A stretch of 64,000 nucleotides of DNA from Pseudobdellovibrionaceae bacterium (GTDB lineage Bacteria; Bdellovibrionota; Bdellovibrionia; Bdellovibrionales; Bdellovibrionaceae), in NCBI GenBank assembly GCA_016785955.1, contig JAEUWH010000123.1:1-64000 (forward strand), given 5' to 3'. The translations under genes and the position numbers were made by a program. Of the stretch, positions 21,465 to 29,827 are shown one piece after another (positions within the stretch are counted from its first letter, which is position 1; every line of letters begins with the position of its first letter). The notes under the pieces are model-generated. The model saw nothing but the letters and a program-made list of their open reading frames with translations, ran no database searches and was not told the DNA's origin.

Positions 21465-22568
21465 ATGCATATTTTTACTGCTCTATTTTTGGTTTTATCA
21501 ATTTCATTATCTTCGTGGGGTGCTGTTAACTGGGAGGCCAGTGCGCATGGTTTATTTCTAATTCGTCAATCTAATTTTCATAAAGAAGATGTAGATCCGA
21601 CAAATGTTGATCAAACGCCTAATGGTTTGAATCTGCGAGAAGCCGAGTTTCAACTGGCATCTAAGATCGATGATCGACATCGTTTGAGTTTCTTATTTGC
21701 TGTTGCTCCTGAATATGAAAGTGATGGTGTCAGTATTCACGAGCATTGGCCAATTGAAATTGAAGAGGCCTATTCTGAATCTGAATTCGTAACGGACACA
21801 ACCTTTCGACTTGGCAAATTCAAAGCGGCCCTGGGTAAGCATAATCGTCTGCACACGCATGACTATCTTTTTGTGGATGCTCCGTTGATAAACTCATATT
21901 TGTTGGGCGAGCATGGTTTAAATGACGTTGGAGCCTCTTTTTCATTTTATATTCCCTCGAGTTGGTCGAACGAAGTCACACTTCAGTATATTCGAGGAAA
22001 AGGGGAAAACGAATTTTTTAATTCGCCGTCGCGTTCCGCCGGGGTGGGTTTAGTAAACTGGAGTCACCTATTTACCATGGAAGATGCAAAGACTTTGGAA
22101 ATCGGTGTTTCCTATGCCGCAGGAGAAAATGGTTTTCGGCAACCAACCACTTATACTGGAGCTGATTTAACATTTGAGTCCGGCACAGCATCGGACGAGC
22201 ATTCGGCGAAATTGATTTGGGCCGTCGAGTACATACAACGGATTCGACAACAAAAAGATATCGAAGATGAAAAAGGAAGTGGAGTTGCGACATGGATCCA
22301 GTATGAAGTCATTCCCGCATGGGCGTTACTATACAGATACGACGATTTAAAAATAGATCATTCGTTTGATATAACAGCAATGCCAGATAATAAATGGCAA
22401 CGTCATTCCGTGGGTATCAAATATTTTTATAGGCCTTCTATTTCGTATCGTCTAGAACTTAACCAAACGAAAATGGAGCAGGCTAACGTGAACGGTAAAG
22501 ATATGGAAAATGCGATCCTAATCCAGGCTAATTTCTCGATTGGATCGCATGAGGGGCATTCTCACTGA
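21465..22568 (+). CDS. Outer-membrane beta-barrel protein with His-rich C-terminus
   Basis: 367 residues: a signal peptide (MHIFTALFLVLSISLSSWGA) and then alternating strands typical of a 12-16-stranded barrel (LREAEFQLASKID, YSESEFVTDTTFRLGKFKAAL, KTLEIGVSYAAGEN, RHSVGIKYFY and YRLELNQTKM). The C-terminus reads FSIGSHEGHSH rather than a terminal aromatic. It resembles porin-like proteins that older annotations link to zinc or metal response; that link is weak. Its end overlaps the convergent thiol peroxidase gene by 7 bases. Confidence 0.7.
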   Translation: MHIFTALFLVLSISLSSWGAVNWEASAHGLFLIRQSNFHKEDVDPTNVDQTPNGLNLREAEFQLASKIDDRHRLSFLFAVAPEYESDGVSIHEHWPIEIEEAYSESEFVTDTTFRLGKFKAALGKHNRLHTHDYLFVDAPLINSYLLGEHGLNDVGASFSFYIPSSWSNEVTLQYIRGKGENEFFNSPSRSAGVGLVNWSHLFTMEDAKTLEIGVSYAAGENGFRQPTTYTGADLTFESGTASDEHSAKLIWAVEYIQRIRQQKDIEDEKGSGVATWIQYEVIPAWALLYRYDDLKIDHSFDITAMPDNKWQRHSVGIKYFYRPSISYRLELNQTKMEQANVNGKDMENAILIQANFSIGSHEGHSH

Positions 22569-23065
22569 TTATTTAAAGCTTTCATTGCGGCATCGTAGTT
22601 AGGCTCATTGACGATGTCGCTTACTTGTTCCGTGTAAATAACTTTATTGTTTTCATCTAGCACAATAACTGAACGTGAGCATAGTCCCGCTAATGGCCCA
22701 TCTTGGATTTGTAAACCATAGTCTTTGGCAAACGTACTGCGAAATGTTGACAATGTTTCGGCATTAGTGATGCCTTCCGCGCCACAAAACCGTTTTTGAG
22801 CGAATGGAAGATCGGCAGAAATATTAATTACTACCGTATTTTTCGCACTAGCAGCATCTTTATTAAAATGTCTTACGGACATAGCACACGTGCCCGTATC
22901 AATGCTTGGGAAAATGTTTAAAACTTTTTTCTTCCCGGCAAATGTAGTTAAGCTGGCTTCGGAAAGATCGGATTTAACAAGTTTAAAATCGGGTATTATT
23001 GAGCCGACGTTGGGAAGTTCGCCTGATGTATGGATCGGGTTTCCTTTGAGTTTGATGGATGCCAT
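22562..23065 (-). CDS. tpx: Thiol peroxidase Tpx
   Basis: 167 residues, normal for Tpx. The peroxidatic cysteine is C60 in TGTCAMSVRHFN and the resolving cysteine C94 in KRFCGAEGI; they form the disulfide that thioredoxin reduces. FPSIDTGTC and DYGLQIQDGPLAGLCSRSVIVLDE complete the family pattern. It reduces H2O2 and alkyl hydroperoxides, in the cytoplasm or periplasm. AAGGAG precedes the ATG. The usual V/P before the peroxidatic cysteine is replaced by GT, a mild variation. Confidence 0.93.
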   Translation of the reverse strand: MASIKLKGNPIHTSGELPNVGSIIPDFKLVKSDLSEASLTTFAGKKKVLNIFPSIDTGTCAMSVRHFNKDAASAKNTVVINISADLPFAQKRFCGAEGITNAETLSTFRSTFAKDYGLQIQDGPLAGLCSRSVIVLDENNKVIYTEQVSDIVNEPNYDAAMKALNNQ

Positions 23066-24504: not shown

Positions 24505-25542
24505 TTAATTTTTGAGATCTGGACTTTGTTTGGGATGCATTTGATGACGGAAAAATATTCCGCTGTCTCCAAACTCTGAGGCAACGAATTCAGATGTAGT
24601 GATGATATCAGCAATGTGGATCGCTGCTTTATGAAATTTTTTAGCATCTTCGTGAGTGTAGTTGCGATAGTCGAATTCTTTATCTATACTTCTGTCATCC
24701 AAAGCATAAATTTTGTAAATAATGGTATTAGCCTTGATGGTGGCAAAATCATTGCGGACGTCATGTGGTTCGTCAGAAGAAAAATTGAAATTTTCACCAG
24801 GAATAAAAAATAACTGTATTGGTGCTATGATTTCGGGGGCTTGAACTCCGTGTTGATCGACGGCTGCTAAATCTTGTACGAGCAGTTCTTCTGGGCGCGC
24901 GGAGTATCTTTTGAAAATTTCGTGAACTTTTCTTTGCCCAAAATCCACACCGATGGGAACAATGTTAGACATTGGGTGAGTAAAGAAATTGTAGTCCGAT
25001 TGTTGCCCTTCCAGTGACACGAGCGCCGAAATATTTCCACTGTCTGTGCCATCACGCAAAACTTTAAGAGCCAGACCAGGAGCTATCGGTCTTTTTAGGA
25101 TCCAAGGTTTTTTGGGGTCTGGCTTGTAAGTCAACGACAGGCGAAGTAAGGCATGATCTGCACCAGAAAAAATACCAGTATATTTAGTACTTACGGAAAC
25201 AATTTTTACTTTCGCGATAGAGCCGCGTGCGTGAAGCAGTTTTTTCCATCCCATGGGTGCAAAGTCATTGAATTCAAGGCTTTTGGGATCCAGATTTTGC
25301 CGACCCATTGCGATCAGCTCTCCAAGGCCGAACTCATGAAATTCAGGAAGGCGAGAATGGGCAGTTTCCTGAATTCGTTGCCAAAGGATATCTATTTTTT
25401 CATTTGCATTTTTTTCTTTGAATCCAACGGGTGCTTGCGAATTCTGGGAGGAATATTCTCCGTTGCCAGCTGGTGAAAAAGTGTAGAAAGCAATCAATGC
25501 GACAGCGATGGCAAATGAAACAATATATTTGATTTTTTTCAT
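24505..25542 (-). CDS. Catalase-related (mini-catalase-like) exported protein
   Basis: 345 residues with an N-terminal signal/anchor (VSFAIAVALIAFYTF). The core resembles the catalase superfamily: WKKLLHARGSIAKVKIVSVS carries a distal-His-like position, followed by YTGIFSGADHALLRLSL, GLALKVLRDGTDSGNISALV and NFFTHPMSNIVP. The usual proximal RxxxY ligand motif is not obvious, so haem binding is inferred. It is shorter than true catalases (about 480) and resembles peroxide- or fatty-acid-hydroperoxide-metabolising relatives. It is divergent from the haem peroxidase gene 197 bases away, suggesting a shared process. Confidence 0.6.
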   Translation of the reverse strand: MKKIKYIVSFAIAVALIAFYTFSPAGNGEYSSQNSQAPVGFKEKNANEKIDILWQRIQETAHSRLPEFHEFGLGELIAMGRQNLDPKSLEFNDFAPMGWKKLLHARGSIAKVKIVSVSTKYTGIFSGADHALLRLSLTYKPDPKKPWILKRPIAPGLALKVLRDGTDSGNISALVSLEGQQSDYNFFTHPMSNIVPIGVDFGQRKVHEIFKRYSARPEELLVQDLAAVDQHGVQAPEIIAPIQLFFIPGENFNFSSDEPHDVRNDFATIKANTIIYKIYALDDRSIDKEFDYRNYTHEDAKKFHKAAIHIADIITTSEFVASEFGDSGIFFRHQMHPKQSPDLKN

Positions 25543-25739
25543 ACTTATTCATTGTAGAGAAAAAATGTACCCTAGAAAGTCCGGTAGTGCAGAACTGGAC
25601 ATAGATCTAAGAGATACGTTGGTTGCTCTGAAAAGCAGTCACTGGCGACAAGACTAGTTCCATTTGAGGTCGTATTGCAAAATATTGTTTCACCTGGATA
25701 AGCTGAATCAGTGTCTACAATAAATAATAAGGAGTATCC

Positions 25740-27848
25740 ATGAAAATTAAAATGGTTTTCAGCTGTGTTGCCGTAGCGGCGACAACAAGCTATATTCTGG
25801 CGTCGTGCGCGCAAAAGCCCGCAACGACAAGACCAGATGTGACTTATGCACCTCCACCAAATTTGAGTCGAGAGCCAAGTTCTGATGTTGACAACAATTC
25901 GACCTGGAGCCAATGGTCAAAGAAAAATACGATCAGTGGTCTTTTGGAGCTAAGTAGAATTCGCACGAGCTTGTTTACAAATAATCTTAAAGATCCACAT
26001 ATAAGTTATTTAGGATATAAGAATGCTAAAAAAGATTGTAATGATACCAACGAGAACAGATTTAGATCTGCTGATGGGACATGTACTGACACCGATTATC
26101 CGATGTCAGGGGCGGCCGGCACAGCGTTTGGCAGAAACGTAGATCCTAAAGATATCGACCATCAAGCTGCTCAAAAGTTACAAATCCCAAATCCCGACAC
26201 GGTATCCAAAGAATTTTTTACGCGTGATAAATTTAAACCAGTGCCTTTCTTGAACATGATTGCAGCTTCATGGATTCAATTTATGAATCATGATTGGTTC
26301 ACTCATGGCCCAAATATGAAAGGCGACGAGTATGTAGTTCGATCTGAAGATGGAAATAGACAGCATGTCATTGACCGCACTCAAGAAATTTCTGCCGATT
26401 TGTCTCAGTTTAAAAAAGAATTTGGCCGTGTTAATGCCAATGATGTCACTCACTGGTGGGATGGATCGCAGATTTATGGCAGCAGCCGTGAAGAACAGAA
26501 CGAACTTCGCACTGGCAGTCTGGGAAAAATGAAAACGTCGGTTGTTCCTGGTACGACTCGTGAGATCTTGCCCAAAGTTGCAGATGGTAAACTCAACCCG
26601 GCAAATAATCGGCAGAATCAAGGCTACGAGTTAACAGGTTTCCGTGATAATTGGTGGGTTGGTTTGAGCATGTTGCATACTTTGTTCGTGAAAGAACATA
26701 ATGCAATCGCTGATGAAATCATGAAAAAGCATGTTCGAAAAAAAGCTGGCAGCACAGATGTATATATTTGGAAAAATGGCAAAGATCAACGTGAACTTAC
26801 GGCCAAGGAACTTGATCACGAGATATTCCAAACGGCTCGTTTAGTCAACGCGGCGGTGATGGCAAAAATTCATACCGTTGAATGGACTCCGGCGATTTTA
26901 CCTAACGATGCTTTGAAGTTCGGTATGAACGCAAATTGGAATGGGCTGCTGAACCCAAACATTTACAGCAAGGGACTCAGCGACCTGCTTGCAAAAGTGA
27001 AATTGAATAAGGCAGATTTTTTTAAGAATGTGGATTTGGGGCATATTGCCGGCGGTATTGTTGGTGGCAAGTATGAACGAGGCGTTGCTCCCTATAGTCT
27101 AACGGAGGAGTTCACGTCAGTTTATCGTCTGCATCCTCTTTTGCCAGAGAATATTACGATCAAAAATATGGGCAATAGGACCGAAAAATCAGTGCCTTTC
27201 ATCAACACCCGTAATCATCTGAGCTATGACATTATGGCAGGTAATGATTTGAAAGATCTTTTTTACTCGTTTGGCACGCAGCACCCGGGTCAATTGGTTA
27301 CCAACAATTTTCCAAAATTCATGCAAGAGCTGGAAATTCCCGGTCACCCGAAGATGGACCTAGCGTTGGTGGATATTTTGCGTGATCGCGAAAGAGGCGT
27401 CCCCCGTTACAATCAATTTAGAAAATCAATCGGTCTAAAACCTATCAAGAGCTATAAAGACTTTTTTAAAATTGAAACAAACAATGGCCAACTAACAGAT
27501 GCACAAGTGGATAAGTTGAACAAATTTTATAAAGTATACGGCCGAAAAGCTGATGGTACAGATAACGTTGAAGATATTGATGTACTCGTAGGGGCTTACG
27601 CCGAGGAAATTCGGCCTGACGGCTTTGGTTTTGGTGAAACTCAGTTCCAAATCTTTATTTTGATGGCGACTCGTCGCTTGATGGCGGATCGTTTTTTCAC
27701 CAAAGATTTCAATGAAGAACATTATACTCGTACGGGATTATATTGGGTGAATAACGCGACAATGTCCAAGGTGATTTTGCGTCATATGCCCGAGCTAGCT
27801 CCCAAGCTTAAAGGTGTGGAAACGGCTTTTAATCCTTGGAATAATTAA
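25740..27848 (+). CDS. Secreted animal-type haem peroxidase (lipoprotein)
   Basis: 702 residues. Residues 1-23 are a lipoprotein signal with lipobox LASC (Cys23). The animal peroxidase/dioxygenase superfamily core has the distal His and calcium Asp in QFMNHDWFTHG (about residue 184), THWWDGSQIYG, SMLHTLFVKEHNAIAD, and the proximal His in VYRLHPLLPE (about 464). Later FGTQHPGQLV, RDRERGVPRYNQFR and GFGFGETQFQIFILMATRRL match bacterial members. Such enzymes oxidise halides or, in fatty-acid dioxygenases, polyunsaturated lipids. Which applies here cannot be told from sequence. It is anchored in the envelope facing outward or the periplasm. Confidence 0.92.
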   Translation: MKIKMVFSCVAVAATTSYILASCAQKPATTRPDVTYAPPPNLSREPSSDVDNNSTWSQWSKKNTISGLLELSRIRTSLFTNNLKDPHISYLGYKNAKKDCNDTNENRFRSADGTCTDTDYPMSGAAGTAFGRNVDPKDIDHQAAQKLQIPNPDTVSKEFFTRDKFKPVPFLNMIAASWIQFMNHDWFTHGPNMKGDEYVVRSEDGNRQHVIDRTQEISADLSQFKKEFGRVNANDVTHWWDGSQIYGSSREEQNELRTGSLGKMKTSVVPGTTREILPKVADGKLNPANNRQNQGYELTGFRDNWWVGLSMLHTLFVKEHNAIADEIMKKHVRKKAGSTDVYIWKNGKDQRELTAKELDHEIFQTARLVNAAVMAKIHTVEWTPAILPNDALKFGMNANWNGLLNPNIYSKGLSDLLAKVKLNKADFFKNVDLGHIAGGIVGGKYERGVAPYSLTEEFTSVYRLHPLLPENITIKNMGNRTEKSVPFINTRNHLSYDIMAGNDLKDLFYSFGTQHPGQLVTNNFPKFMQELEIPGHPKMDLALVDILRDRERGVPRYNQFRKSIGLKPIKSYKDFFKIETNNGQLTDAQVDKLNKFYKVYGRKADGTDNVEDIDVLVGAYAEEIRPDGFGFGETQFQIFILMATRRLMADRFFTKDFNEEHYTRTGLYWVNNATMSKVILRHMPELAPKLKGVETAFNPWNN

Positions 27849-27871
27849 TCAGCGGTTTTTTTCGCAGAATA

Positions 27872-27900
27872 AAAAAGGAGAAGCATGGCTTCTCCTTTTT
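27872..27900. terminator. Strong bidirectional terminator
   Basis: A 13-bp perfect stem (AAAAAGGAGAAGC, 27872-27884, with its complement 27888-27900) closes on a 3-base loop, with T-rich sequence after it on the plus strand and an A-run before it. It sits between the haem peroxidase gene and the convergent gene ending at 27929, serving both. Confidence 0.9.
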
Positions 27901-27928
27901 TATTATTTAAAGCATATGGGTGCTTTAA

Positions 27929-28876
27929 CTATTTTTTTGCGCGAGCGGCTTTAGCTTTCTCTTCGTCTTTGATGTTGTAATGTCTTTCGTAATAGAAACC
28001 GACATCGGAGGCATCATTGGGATTGATTATTAGTAATTCTTCTGTCGTGAATCTTTCCAGGCCAAAGCTTTTCCAGTTAACGATATCCACAAATACTGCA
28101 ATTTTTCCCTCGACAGTTTCTTTACCCTTGTTCACGTTGTCTGCGGCAGACAGTGTGAACATTTTTGGTAATTTTTCTTCAATTTTAAATTTTCCAGAAA
28201 CGGTGTCTCGATTGAAATTCACGATACCATCCGTAGAAATATCTGTGTTAACCGTTTTTTTGAAATAATCATCACCTGTGCTGTTGGTAGTTCCAAAATA
28301 TTTACCAGGAACATATCCTTCCCAAGTGGAGTTACCGCGAAGTGTACGTTGTGGGTTGAAAGTCACAACTTCTGCAACTTCATTTTTCTCATTGAGACGA
28401 GTTAAAGTTGCTTTTTCGATACTATTTGCGGTGTTTAGTTTTAAATGGCTAGCGACCGCTTCTGAATTAACATCGATGTCGCCACTGGCTGTGACCATAA
28501 GCGGTTTCAAATCGAATTCTAAGTCGGATACTTTGTTCGCTCGGTAAATGTACATTCTTGGGACCCAGTTAACTAACGCTAACTCATTTGATTTTGGAGT
28601 TAATTTTCCAATTTTTCCTAGCTTGATGAATTTCAAAACTTCTTTGTCTTGAACGGTGTATTCGGCCAAAATTACATAATAGCTGTCAGAGTTCTTTTCG
28701 TCTTTCTTGATAAGCATAGACATAAAGTCATTTTCTTTTGCTTTTTCCTGTTTTGCGTTCACCAGCGGACTGTTTCCACGAAATGCACCTTCGGGTAGGG
28801 TGCTGGCGAAACTGACCGATGCCGAGATCACGGTGGCCGCTAATGTTAAACCCACAGATCTAAAACCTAATTTCAT
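27929..28876 (-). CDS. Secreted protein of unknown function
   Basis: 315 residues with a signal peptide (LGFRSVGLTLAATVISASVS, then FAS; likely cut after a short segment). The mature part is rich in Lys, Asp and beta-forming stretches (YYVILAEYTVQDKEVLKFI, GYVPGKYFGTT, FGLERFTTEELLIINP) and ends in a very basic KAKAARAKK tail. I do not recognise a family. It is likely periplasmic or outer-membrane associated. AGGAG lies 6 bases before the ATG. Monocistronic, sharing a terminator with the peroxidase. Confidence 0.6.
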   Translation of the reverse strand: MKLGFRSVGLTLAATVISASVSFASTLPEGAFRGNSPLVNAKQEKAKENDFMSMLIKKDEKNSDSYYVILAEYTVQDKEVLKFIKLGKIGKLTPKSNELALVNWVPRMYIYRANKVSDLEFDLKPLMVTASGDIDVNSEAVASHLKLNTANSIEKATLTRLNEKNEVAEVVTFNPQRTLRGNSTWEGYVPGKYFGTTNSTGDDYFKKTVNTDISTDGIVNFNRDTVSGKFKIEEKLPKMFTLSAADNVNKGKETVEGKIAVFVDIVNWKSFGLERFTTEELLIINPNDASDVGFYYERHYNIKDEEKAKAARAKK

Positions 28877-29059: not shown

Positions 29060-29827
29060 ATGGACTTAACTTGGCTTGGGACCGCAGGGTTTATCATTAA
29101 AACTAAAGACACCGAGATTGCGTTTGATCCTTTTCTTTCGCGAGGGCAAGGCAAGCCTTCTCCATTTTCATCGAAATCATTTGAAAATACCGAGGCTATA
29201 TTTGTAGGCCACGGACATTTTGATCATACGTATGATATTCCCGAAATTGTTGCGGGTTCTGATCTGAATGTGTTTGCGCCGGGGCTGACTGGTAAAATGT
29301 TAAAAATGCGAGGCGTTCCCGAGTCTCGATTATTGCACACGGTTAACGATGAAATTTTATTTAAGCCTTTAAAAATGCGCGCATTTCATAGTTCGCATGT
29401 TCATTTCGATATCCCATTGATAGTCTCGACGGTGAAACGTTGCGGAGTTAAGGGCTGCCTGCACATGCTTCCTTTAGTCACTGGATATCCGAAAGGTTTA
29501 GTGCAAACTTATTTTTTTGAAGTGAACGGAAAAAAAGTTTTATTCGCGAGCACGGCTGGATGTACGGACCGCGAGCTTAATATTTACCGTAAACTTGAGA
29601 TCGATTATTTTCTGGCGCCGGTTCAAGGCAACACAGATATACAAGAAATCGTTGCCAAACAAATGATGATTATTCAGCCCAAAGTTATTATTCCCCATCA
29701 TCATGATGATTTTTATCCTCCTCTGAGCCAGGAAATTTCATTGGGTATTTTCCGCGATAAGTTAAAGTTTCTGGGATTTAAAGGCGAACTTCTGGAAATA
29801 CCGCTTTTTGATAGTTCGCAGATTTAG
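29060..29827 (+). CDS. Metallo-beta-lactamase-fold hydrolase (UlaG-like)
   Basis: 255 residues. WLGTAGFIIKTKDTEIAFDPF opens the fold, and the metal-binding HxHxDH motif is present as GHGHFDHTYD. Other metal ligands are plausible in HSSHVHFD and PKVIIPHHHDD. The layout (short, starting with the first strand, UlaG-type) suggests a lactonase or phosphodiesterase-like hydrolase. The substrate is unknown. No signal peptide, so probably cytoplasmic. Divergent from the upstream secreted-protein gene. Confidence 0.85.
   Translation: MDLTWLGTAGFIIKTKDTEIAFDPFLSRGQGKPSPFSSKSFENTEAIFVGHGHFDHTYDIPEIVAGSDLNVFAPGLTGKMLKMRGVPESRLLHTVNDEILFKPLKMRAFHSSHVHFDIPLIVSTVKRCGVKGCLHMLPLVTGYPKGLVQTYFFEVNGKKVLFASTAGCTDRELNIYRKLEIDYFLAPVQGNTDIQEIVAKQMMIIQPKVIIPHHHDDFYPPLSQEISLGIFRDKLKFLGFKGELLEIPLFDSSQI

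Follow-up and report, generated by a model that had tools for sequence, protein, structure and literature searches.

We analysed a 64,000-nucleotide stretch (the window) of contig JAEUWH010000123.1 from a Pseudobdellovibrionaceae bacterium, in which the gene for a predicted fatty-acid alpha-dioxygenase (alpha-DOX) lies beside one for a protein with a modelled catalase fold (the partner). The two proteins very probably work together. A two-step lipid-oxidation pathway is very likely because the same two genes are adjacent or fused in other bacteria, and its probable form is fatty-acid alpha-oxidation at the cell envelope, in which alpha-DOX would form 2-hydroperoxides for the partner to convert. 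Alpha-dioxygenases are studied for their role in plant defence and as biocatalysts for aromas, and they are encoded in many bacteria as well. An earlier note, made from the window sequence alone, had placed both genes correctly. It described them as facing each other across 197 bases; the distance between the start codons, read from the window sequence, is exactly that, but the genes are divergent, back to back.

24505..25542, minus strand: catalase-fold partner gene, 345 amino acids (aa), supported by its open reading frame, modelled fold and conservation in 51 relatives
25740..27848, plus strand: gene for the predicted fatty-acid alpha-DOX, 702 aa, An_peroxidase (PF03098), predicted lipoprotein
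24544..24546, minus strand: codon of partner His333, the histidine of the C-terminal FF[RK]H, a putative ligand
25231..25233, minus strand: codon of partner His104, candidate distal catalytic histidine, present in 51/51 sequences
27123..27134, plus strand: codons of alpha-DOX Tyr462 to His465 (YRLH), aligned with rice alpha-DOX Tyr379 and His382

Judged from its sequence, the 702-aa protein is almost certainly a fatty-acid alpha-DOX. It matches the An_peroxidase family of Pfam (E 1.2e-99), in keeping with the "animal haem peroxidase" of the earlier note, but it belongs more specifically with the fatty-acid alpha-dioxygenases. Its best solved relatives are plant alpha-dioxygenases (PDB 4hhr, 5.3e-81; 4kvj, 1.3e-78), followed by lactoperoxidase (5.6e-17) and cyclooxygenase (5e-6); the class assignment is thus set against these two kinds by PDB matches and not against any 10S-DOX sequence. 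We mapped 16 positions through the alignment, 13 substrate-channel residues of rice alpha-DOX together with residues of the catalytic and haem sites, taking their roles (distal His157, proximal His382, Tyr379, Phe375 and the channel list) from PMC8720084. Fifteen of the 16 are identical in the window protein (L53, R57, H157, H311, W315, T316, A331, F375, Y379, H382, F549, F552, I553, A556 and R559 in rice numbering) and the sole change is M325 to L. The catalytic Tyr462, proximal His465 and distal His184 correspond to rice Tyr379, His382 and His157. Also kept is the set that positions the carboxylate and C-alpha, His378, Thr383 and Arg646 (rice His311, Thr316 and Arg559). Formation of (R)-2-hydroperoxides is established for the alpha-DOX family (PMC9305512). 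A generic animal peroxidase identity was dropped, the relation to alpha-DOX being far stronger in both PDB E-values and residues.

The alpha-DOX had been called secreted. Because it has a lipobox (LASC, within ILASC, with Cys23), the protein is better read as a membrane-anchored lipoprotein. A lipobox is common to most Bdellovibrionota homologues. The gammaproteobacterial and cyanobacterial homologues start at or near the enzyme domain, and no lipobox-type signal was seen in them.

To determine how regularly the two genes occur together, we surveyed 369 Bdellovibrionota genomes. Alpha-DOX is encoded in 39, a close partner in 37, and both in 35; one further genome with a fragmentary, weak alpha-DOX match was left out of the count of 39. 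A close partner is therefore found in 35/39 genomes with alpha-DOX versus 2/330 without, far from chance (Fisher p 4e-42, a value that takes genomes as independent and ignores shared ancestry). The partner lies within 1.6 kb of 29 of the 39 alpha-DOX genes, in divergent, co-directional (alpha-DOX first) and, once, convergent arrangement. Five genomes with alpha-DOX have the partner on another contig only, and one has it 202 kb away. In one genome (L021:1-2511; G014:C28) the alpha-DOX gene breaks off where a contig ends, beside a transposase-like open reading frame, and its remainder lies on a different contig; an insertion sequence has probably disrupted it.

Beyond this phylum we scanned one genome per species with an alpha-DOX profile and kept the best 80 loci. 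The partner is a neighbouring gene in 10 of these 80 and is fused to the alpha-DOX C-terminus in 34, with two more fusions missed by the open reading frame filter for a total of 36. All 36 belong to one proteobacterial clade (Pseudomonas, Marinobacter, Alcanivorax, Thalassolituus and Moraxellaceae). The gammaproteobacterial fusions are about 915 aa long and match the partner profile (A1), which was built from Bdellovibrionota sequences only, with E typically 1e-72 to 1e-81. Four of 386 cyanobacterial genomes encode a partner; the two close copies adjoin an alpha-DOX and the two distant ones occur without any. Where alpha-DOX has no adjacent partner, the partner is absent genome-wide in 21 of 22 genomes, and the remaining one has a 137-aa piece. 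In a quickly built alpha-DOX tree, which carried long-branch warnings, paired loci fall into three distinct regions, those of the Bdellovibrionota, the cyanobacteria and the gammaproteobacteria.

The 345-aa partner begins with a hydrophobic segment and is predicted to be exported or anchored. No match was found in Pfam, NCBIfam or the PDB sequences, with the protein alone or with profiles of 7 or 24 relatives. An AlphaFold2 model built with the 24 relatives has a predicted local distance difference test score (pLDDT) of 89.2 and a predicted template modelling score of 0.88. With this model, the top five Foldseek matches in the PDB were all catalases or catalase-related, only 3e4w falling below 0.001 (E 4e-4), and VIA-align returned a list almost wholly of catalases, with Z about 10 over 190-220 residues. 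The model thus bears out the description "catalase-like": the partner is of the catalase fold as modelled, an assignment upheld by structure only and not by a sequence match.

Conservation in the predicted pocket is high. Among 51 family members, K101, H104 and R134 are present in 51/51 and S136 and N170 in 50/51, and the C-terminal His333 of FF[RK]H is found in all 50 sequences that reach that position. We take His104 to be the equivalent of catalase His75. Lys101 stands three residues before His104, where y4iL-type catalases have Arg. A comparison with the y4iL-type profile gave a weak, local match of 40 columns with R-x-S (Arg134-x-Ser136) in register; the register of His104 and Asn170 was set by motif and inference. 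The R-x-x-x-Y helix provides the usual proximal haem ligand of catalases. The y4iL-type proteins run past an F-x-P-W-H stretch into this helix. It is absent from all members of the partner family, stand-alone or fused, which stop at FF[RK]HQ, so that the distal side of the haem pocket would be kept and the classical proximal ligand gone. Counted from the last barrel strand, His333 presumably falls at the catalase F-x-P segment beside the proximal Tyr, and it could be a replacement proximal ligand.

The dioxygenase and catalase-related pair of the earlier note, suggested there to make oxylipins, is the best-supported reading, given the alpha-DOX residues and the adjacency or fusion in three groups; what changes is the chemistry, alpha-oxidation to 2-hydroperoxides, and the partner, which is divergent and without the canonical haem-ligand helix. 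The proposal of oxylipins is likewise supported, but alpha-oxidation does not require the polyunsaturated substrate that had been named. In the proposed pathway the alpha-DOX lipoprotein would hold a free fatty acid by His378 and Arg646, its haem and Tyr462 would abstract hydrogen from C-alpha, and O2 would be added there to give the (R)-2-hydroperoxide. The distal His/Asn/Ser pocket of the partner would take up this product and convert it, either by reduction to a 2-hydroxy acid or by cleavage to a one-carbon-shorter aldehyde, as opposed to spontaneous decay. That the catalase-fold partner is fixed, and in Pseudomonas, Marinobacter and Alcanivorax often fused, suggests that the 2-hydroperoxide is handed on and not left to decay. 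In Bdellovibrionota the system is predicted to sit in the envelope and could act on prey lipids or on the cell's own. Candidate purposes are a signal, an anti-prey compound, the use of lipids or modification of the envelope.

The haem, substrate and product of the partner are those we infer for it. A more specific form of the proposal, which we regard as doubtful, makes the partner a new haem-enzyme class, an "alpha-hydroperoxide synthase/lyase" with His333 as proximal ligand and no Tyr, acting only on 2-hydroperoxy acids from alpha-DOX in a dedicated alpha-oxidation pathway that is surface-exposed in Bdellovibrionota. As a relative of catalases that does without the Tyr ligand, the partner would raise the question of haem-ligand switching.

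Several observations weigh against the two-step pathway. The 80 loci of the genome scan are those most like the window alpha-DOX. Most other alpha-DOX lineages are without the partner, on which the first step therefore does not depend. A second, more distant partner subfamily is encoded in 23 Bdellovibrionota genomes without any alpha-DOX, and the fold is therefore not tied to alpha-DOX alone. Finally, the partner has no proximal R-x-x-x-Y motif, which its y4iL-type relatives keep, and because this motif is missing, haem binding by the partner, as read from its sequence, is uncertain. A stand-alone copy related to the distant subfamily is found on a Pseudomonas veronii plasmid. The subfamily and this copy are represented by L022:4637-5563, L023:4285-5196 and L108:5974-6954, and those that were aligned retain His104 and His333.

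That the partner instead serves peroxide tuning or defence, destroying or metering H2O2 or lipid peroxides, shielding the cell and controlling activation of the alpha-DOX haem with no specific oxylipin made, is improbable. Its catalase fold with a distal His/Ser/Asn pocket would suit such a role, as would a host genome in which a search turned up neither a Pfam catalase nor a PF00141 peroxidase, the thiol peroxidase gene (Redoxin family) near the pair at 22562-23065, and the activation of alpha-DOX haem by H2O2 (PMC9305512). However, a general defence enzyme is not expected to track alpha-DOX in 35/37 genomes or to share a single cytosolic protein with it in Pseudomonas, and the partner lacks the proximal Tyr on which normal catalase chemistry depends. 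This alternative, already raised in the earlier note, is less likely than conversion of the hydroperoxide. No likelier is a partner that has lost its cofactor and binds, channels or stabilises the fatty acid or hydroperoxide as a subunit of alpha-DOX. Such a loss would be consistent with every member, stand-alone or fused, ending before the proximal-ligand helix, and with the failure of even a 24-member profile to reveal similarity to catalases in sequence. Yet K101 (three residues before the His), H104, R134-x-S136 and N170 are invariant or nearly so in sequences that diverge to about 30% identity, and His333 is invariant at the C-terminal end. We disfavour the haem-free partner because loss of haem should have released the pocket residues.

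The two genes could also be fortuitous neighbours with unrelated functions, being divergent in the window and not an operon, with the partner on another contig or 202 kb off in the six genomes noted above. Against this stand the natural fusion, proximity retained through rearrangement, the co-occurrence and a motif shared 5' of both genes. The fusion seen in one lineage, together with the adjacency seen in two more, leaves chance proximity close to refuted and very improbable. The two-step conversion of fatty acids through 2-hydroperoxides is the reading we favour.

The DNA around the pair contains the following additional features.

25545..25558, minus strand: 14-nucleotide motif TCTACAATGAATAA, directly 5' of the catalase-fold gene
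25714..25727, plus strand: 14-nucleotide motif TCTACAATAAATAA, 5' of the dioxygenase gene
27871..27901, plus strand: strong hairpin AAAAAAGGAGAAGC-ATG-GCTTCTCCTTTTTT with a T-run, between the convergent alpha-DOX and next gene; probable bidirectional terminator
27929..28876, minus strand: exported beta-rich protein, family unassigned; homologues adjoin the pair in related genomes
29060..29827, plus strand: metallo-beta-lactamase-fold hydrolase, UPF0173-like; adjoins the pair in several relatives

Both start codons are closely preceded by the motif TCTACAATRAATAA, in inverted arrangement. In the 4.34-Mb genome its exact form is confined to these two copies in the gap between partner and alpha-DOX, and from the sequence the motif may co-regulate the two genes. 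The divergent gaps of six relatives do not contain the motif pair, and a scan of the region for sigma-70-like promoters gave no excess over shuffled sequences.

We tentatively assign the two genes downstream of alpha-DOX to the same module. A homologue of the 27929-28876 protein is fused to the alpha-DOX N-terminus in one relative (G009; L018:4524-7313). Its model is beta-rich and of medium confidence (pLDDT 70), with no fold match below E 0.001. A hairpin with a 15-bp stem followed by a T-run lies within its coding region on the opposite strand (28129-28161). The best solved relative of the hydrolase at 29060-29827 is TM_1162 (E 3e-11), and its homologues adjoin the pair in G009, G034, L028, L030, L031 and L032.

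Outside the Bdellovibrionota, the Calothrix plasmid pCAL6303.01 encodes, in order, an AraC regulator, alpha-DOX, the partner, a GMC oxidoreductase and a patatin-like phospholipase. A second cyanobacterium again has alpha-DOX, partner and a GMC-like oxidoreductase in that order. Free fatty acids would come from the phospholipase, and the presence of the GMC oxidoreductase may point to an alcohol or a hydroxy acid as product. A LuxR-type regulator with an AAA (ATPase) domain recurs near 26 of the 36 fused loci and is directly upstream in one (L083:5207-7840).

An oxygenase combined with a catalase-fold protein is already a known theme. The literature searched gave no alpha-DOX example that uses this partner family. 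Nor did that search, with most subscription journals outside its coverage, return any report of an alpha-DOX/catalase fusion. Alpha-DOX sequences from five bacterial phyla have been described with C-terminal extensions trimmed for that study (PMC8720084), in which a text search gave no hit for catalase or fusion. Like the plant and cyanobacterial enzymes (rice, Arabidopsis, CalDOX, LepDOX and CsDOX; PMC8720084, PMC9305512), the window alpha-DOX has the fold family, the catalytic Tyr, both haem His and the carboxylate binders. Unlike them it is a predicted lipoprotein, has about 50-100 extra residues and is paired with a catalase-fold protein.

By the description of Brash et al. 2014 given in PMC13049297, Nostoc punctiforme has a linoleate 10S-dioxygenase and a separate catalase-related 10S-hydroperoxide lyase. 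As in that tandem, an oxygenase gene and a catalase-fold gene are adjacent or fused, here in several lineages. The Nostoc oxygenase is described as acting at C10 of unsaturated fatty acids, whereas the window enzyme has alpha-DOX residues; the lyase is likewise set apart by description, since the window partner is not recognisable as a catalase by sequence and is without the proximal Tyr motif. The coral AOS-LOX and HPL-LOX proteins (PMC5617202, PMC3925239) also join a fatty-acid oxygenase to a catalase-related domain in one chain. However, the coral oxygenase is a lipoxygenase and forms the C-terminal half, while in the gammaproteobacterial fusions the catalase-fold domain is C-terminal to alpha-DOX.

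The best structural match of the partner is MAP-2744c, a 33-kDa catalase-related protein (3e4w/3e4y; Foldseek E 4e-4, VIA Z 10.3). The two share only 13% identity, and MAP-2744c is recognised by y4iL-type catalase profiles, the partner by none. In the y4iL-type family, too, named here for Sinorhizobium pNGR234a, a catalase-fold domain is encoded near peroxidase or dioxygenase genes and patatin, and in an order-level relative (G038) it is naturally fused to alpha-DOX in a protein of 1146 aa (L025:3928-7368). A 991-aa alpha-DOX frame in G263 may be similar. Genes of this type also lie near four more alpha-DOX loci (L039, L050, L053 and L054) and, on Methylobacterium and Paracoccus plasmids, adjoin other An_peroxidase genes. 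On pNGR234a (L109:4899-10900), the genes after y4iL encode a di-haem cytochrome c peroxidase and a patatin-like phospholipase, which gives a third type of context for oxygenase plus catalase fold. Unlike the partner, y4iL-type proteins keep the R-x-x-x-Y proximal motif and match catalases by profile. Taken with the pairings of the window-type partner, these cases indicate that at least two catalase-fold subfamilies are joined to oxygenases of this superfamily.

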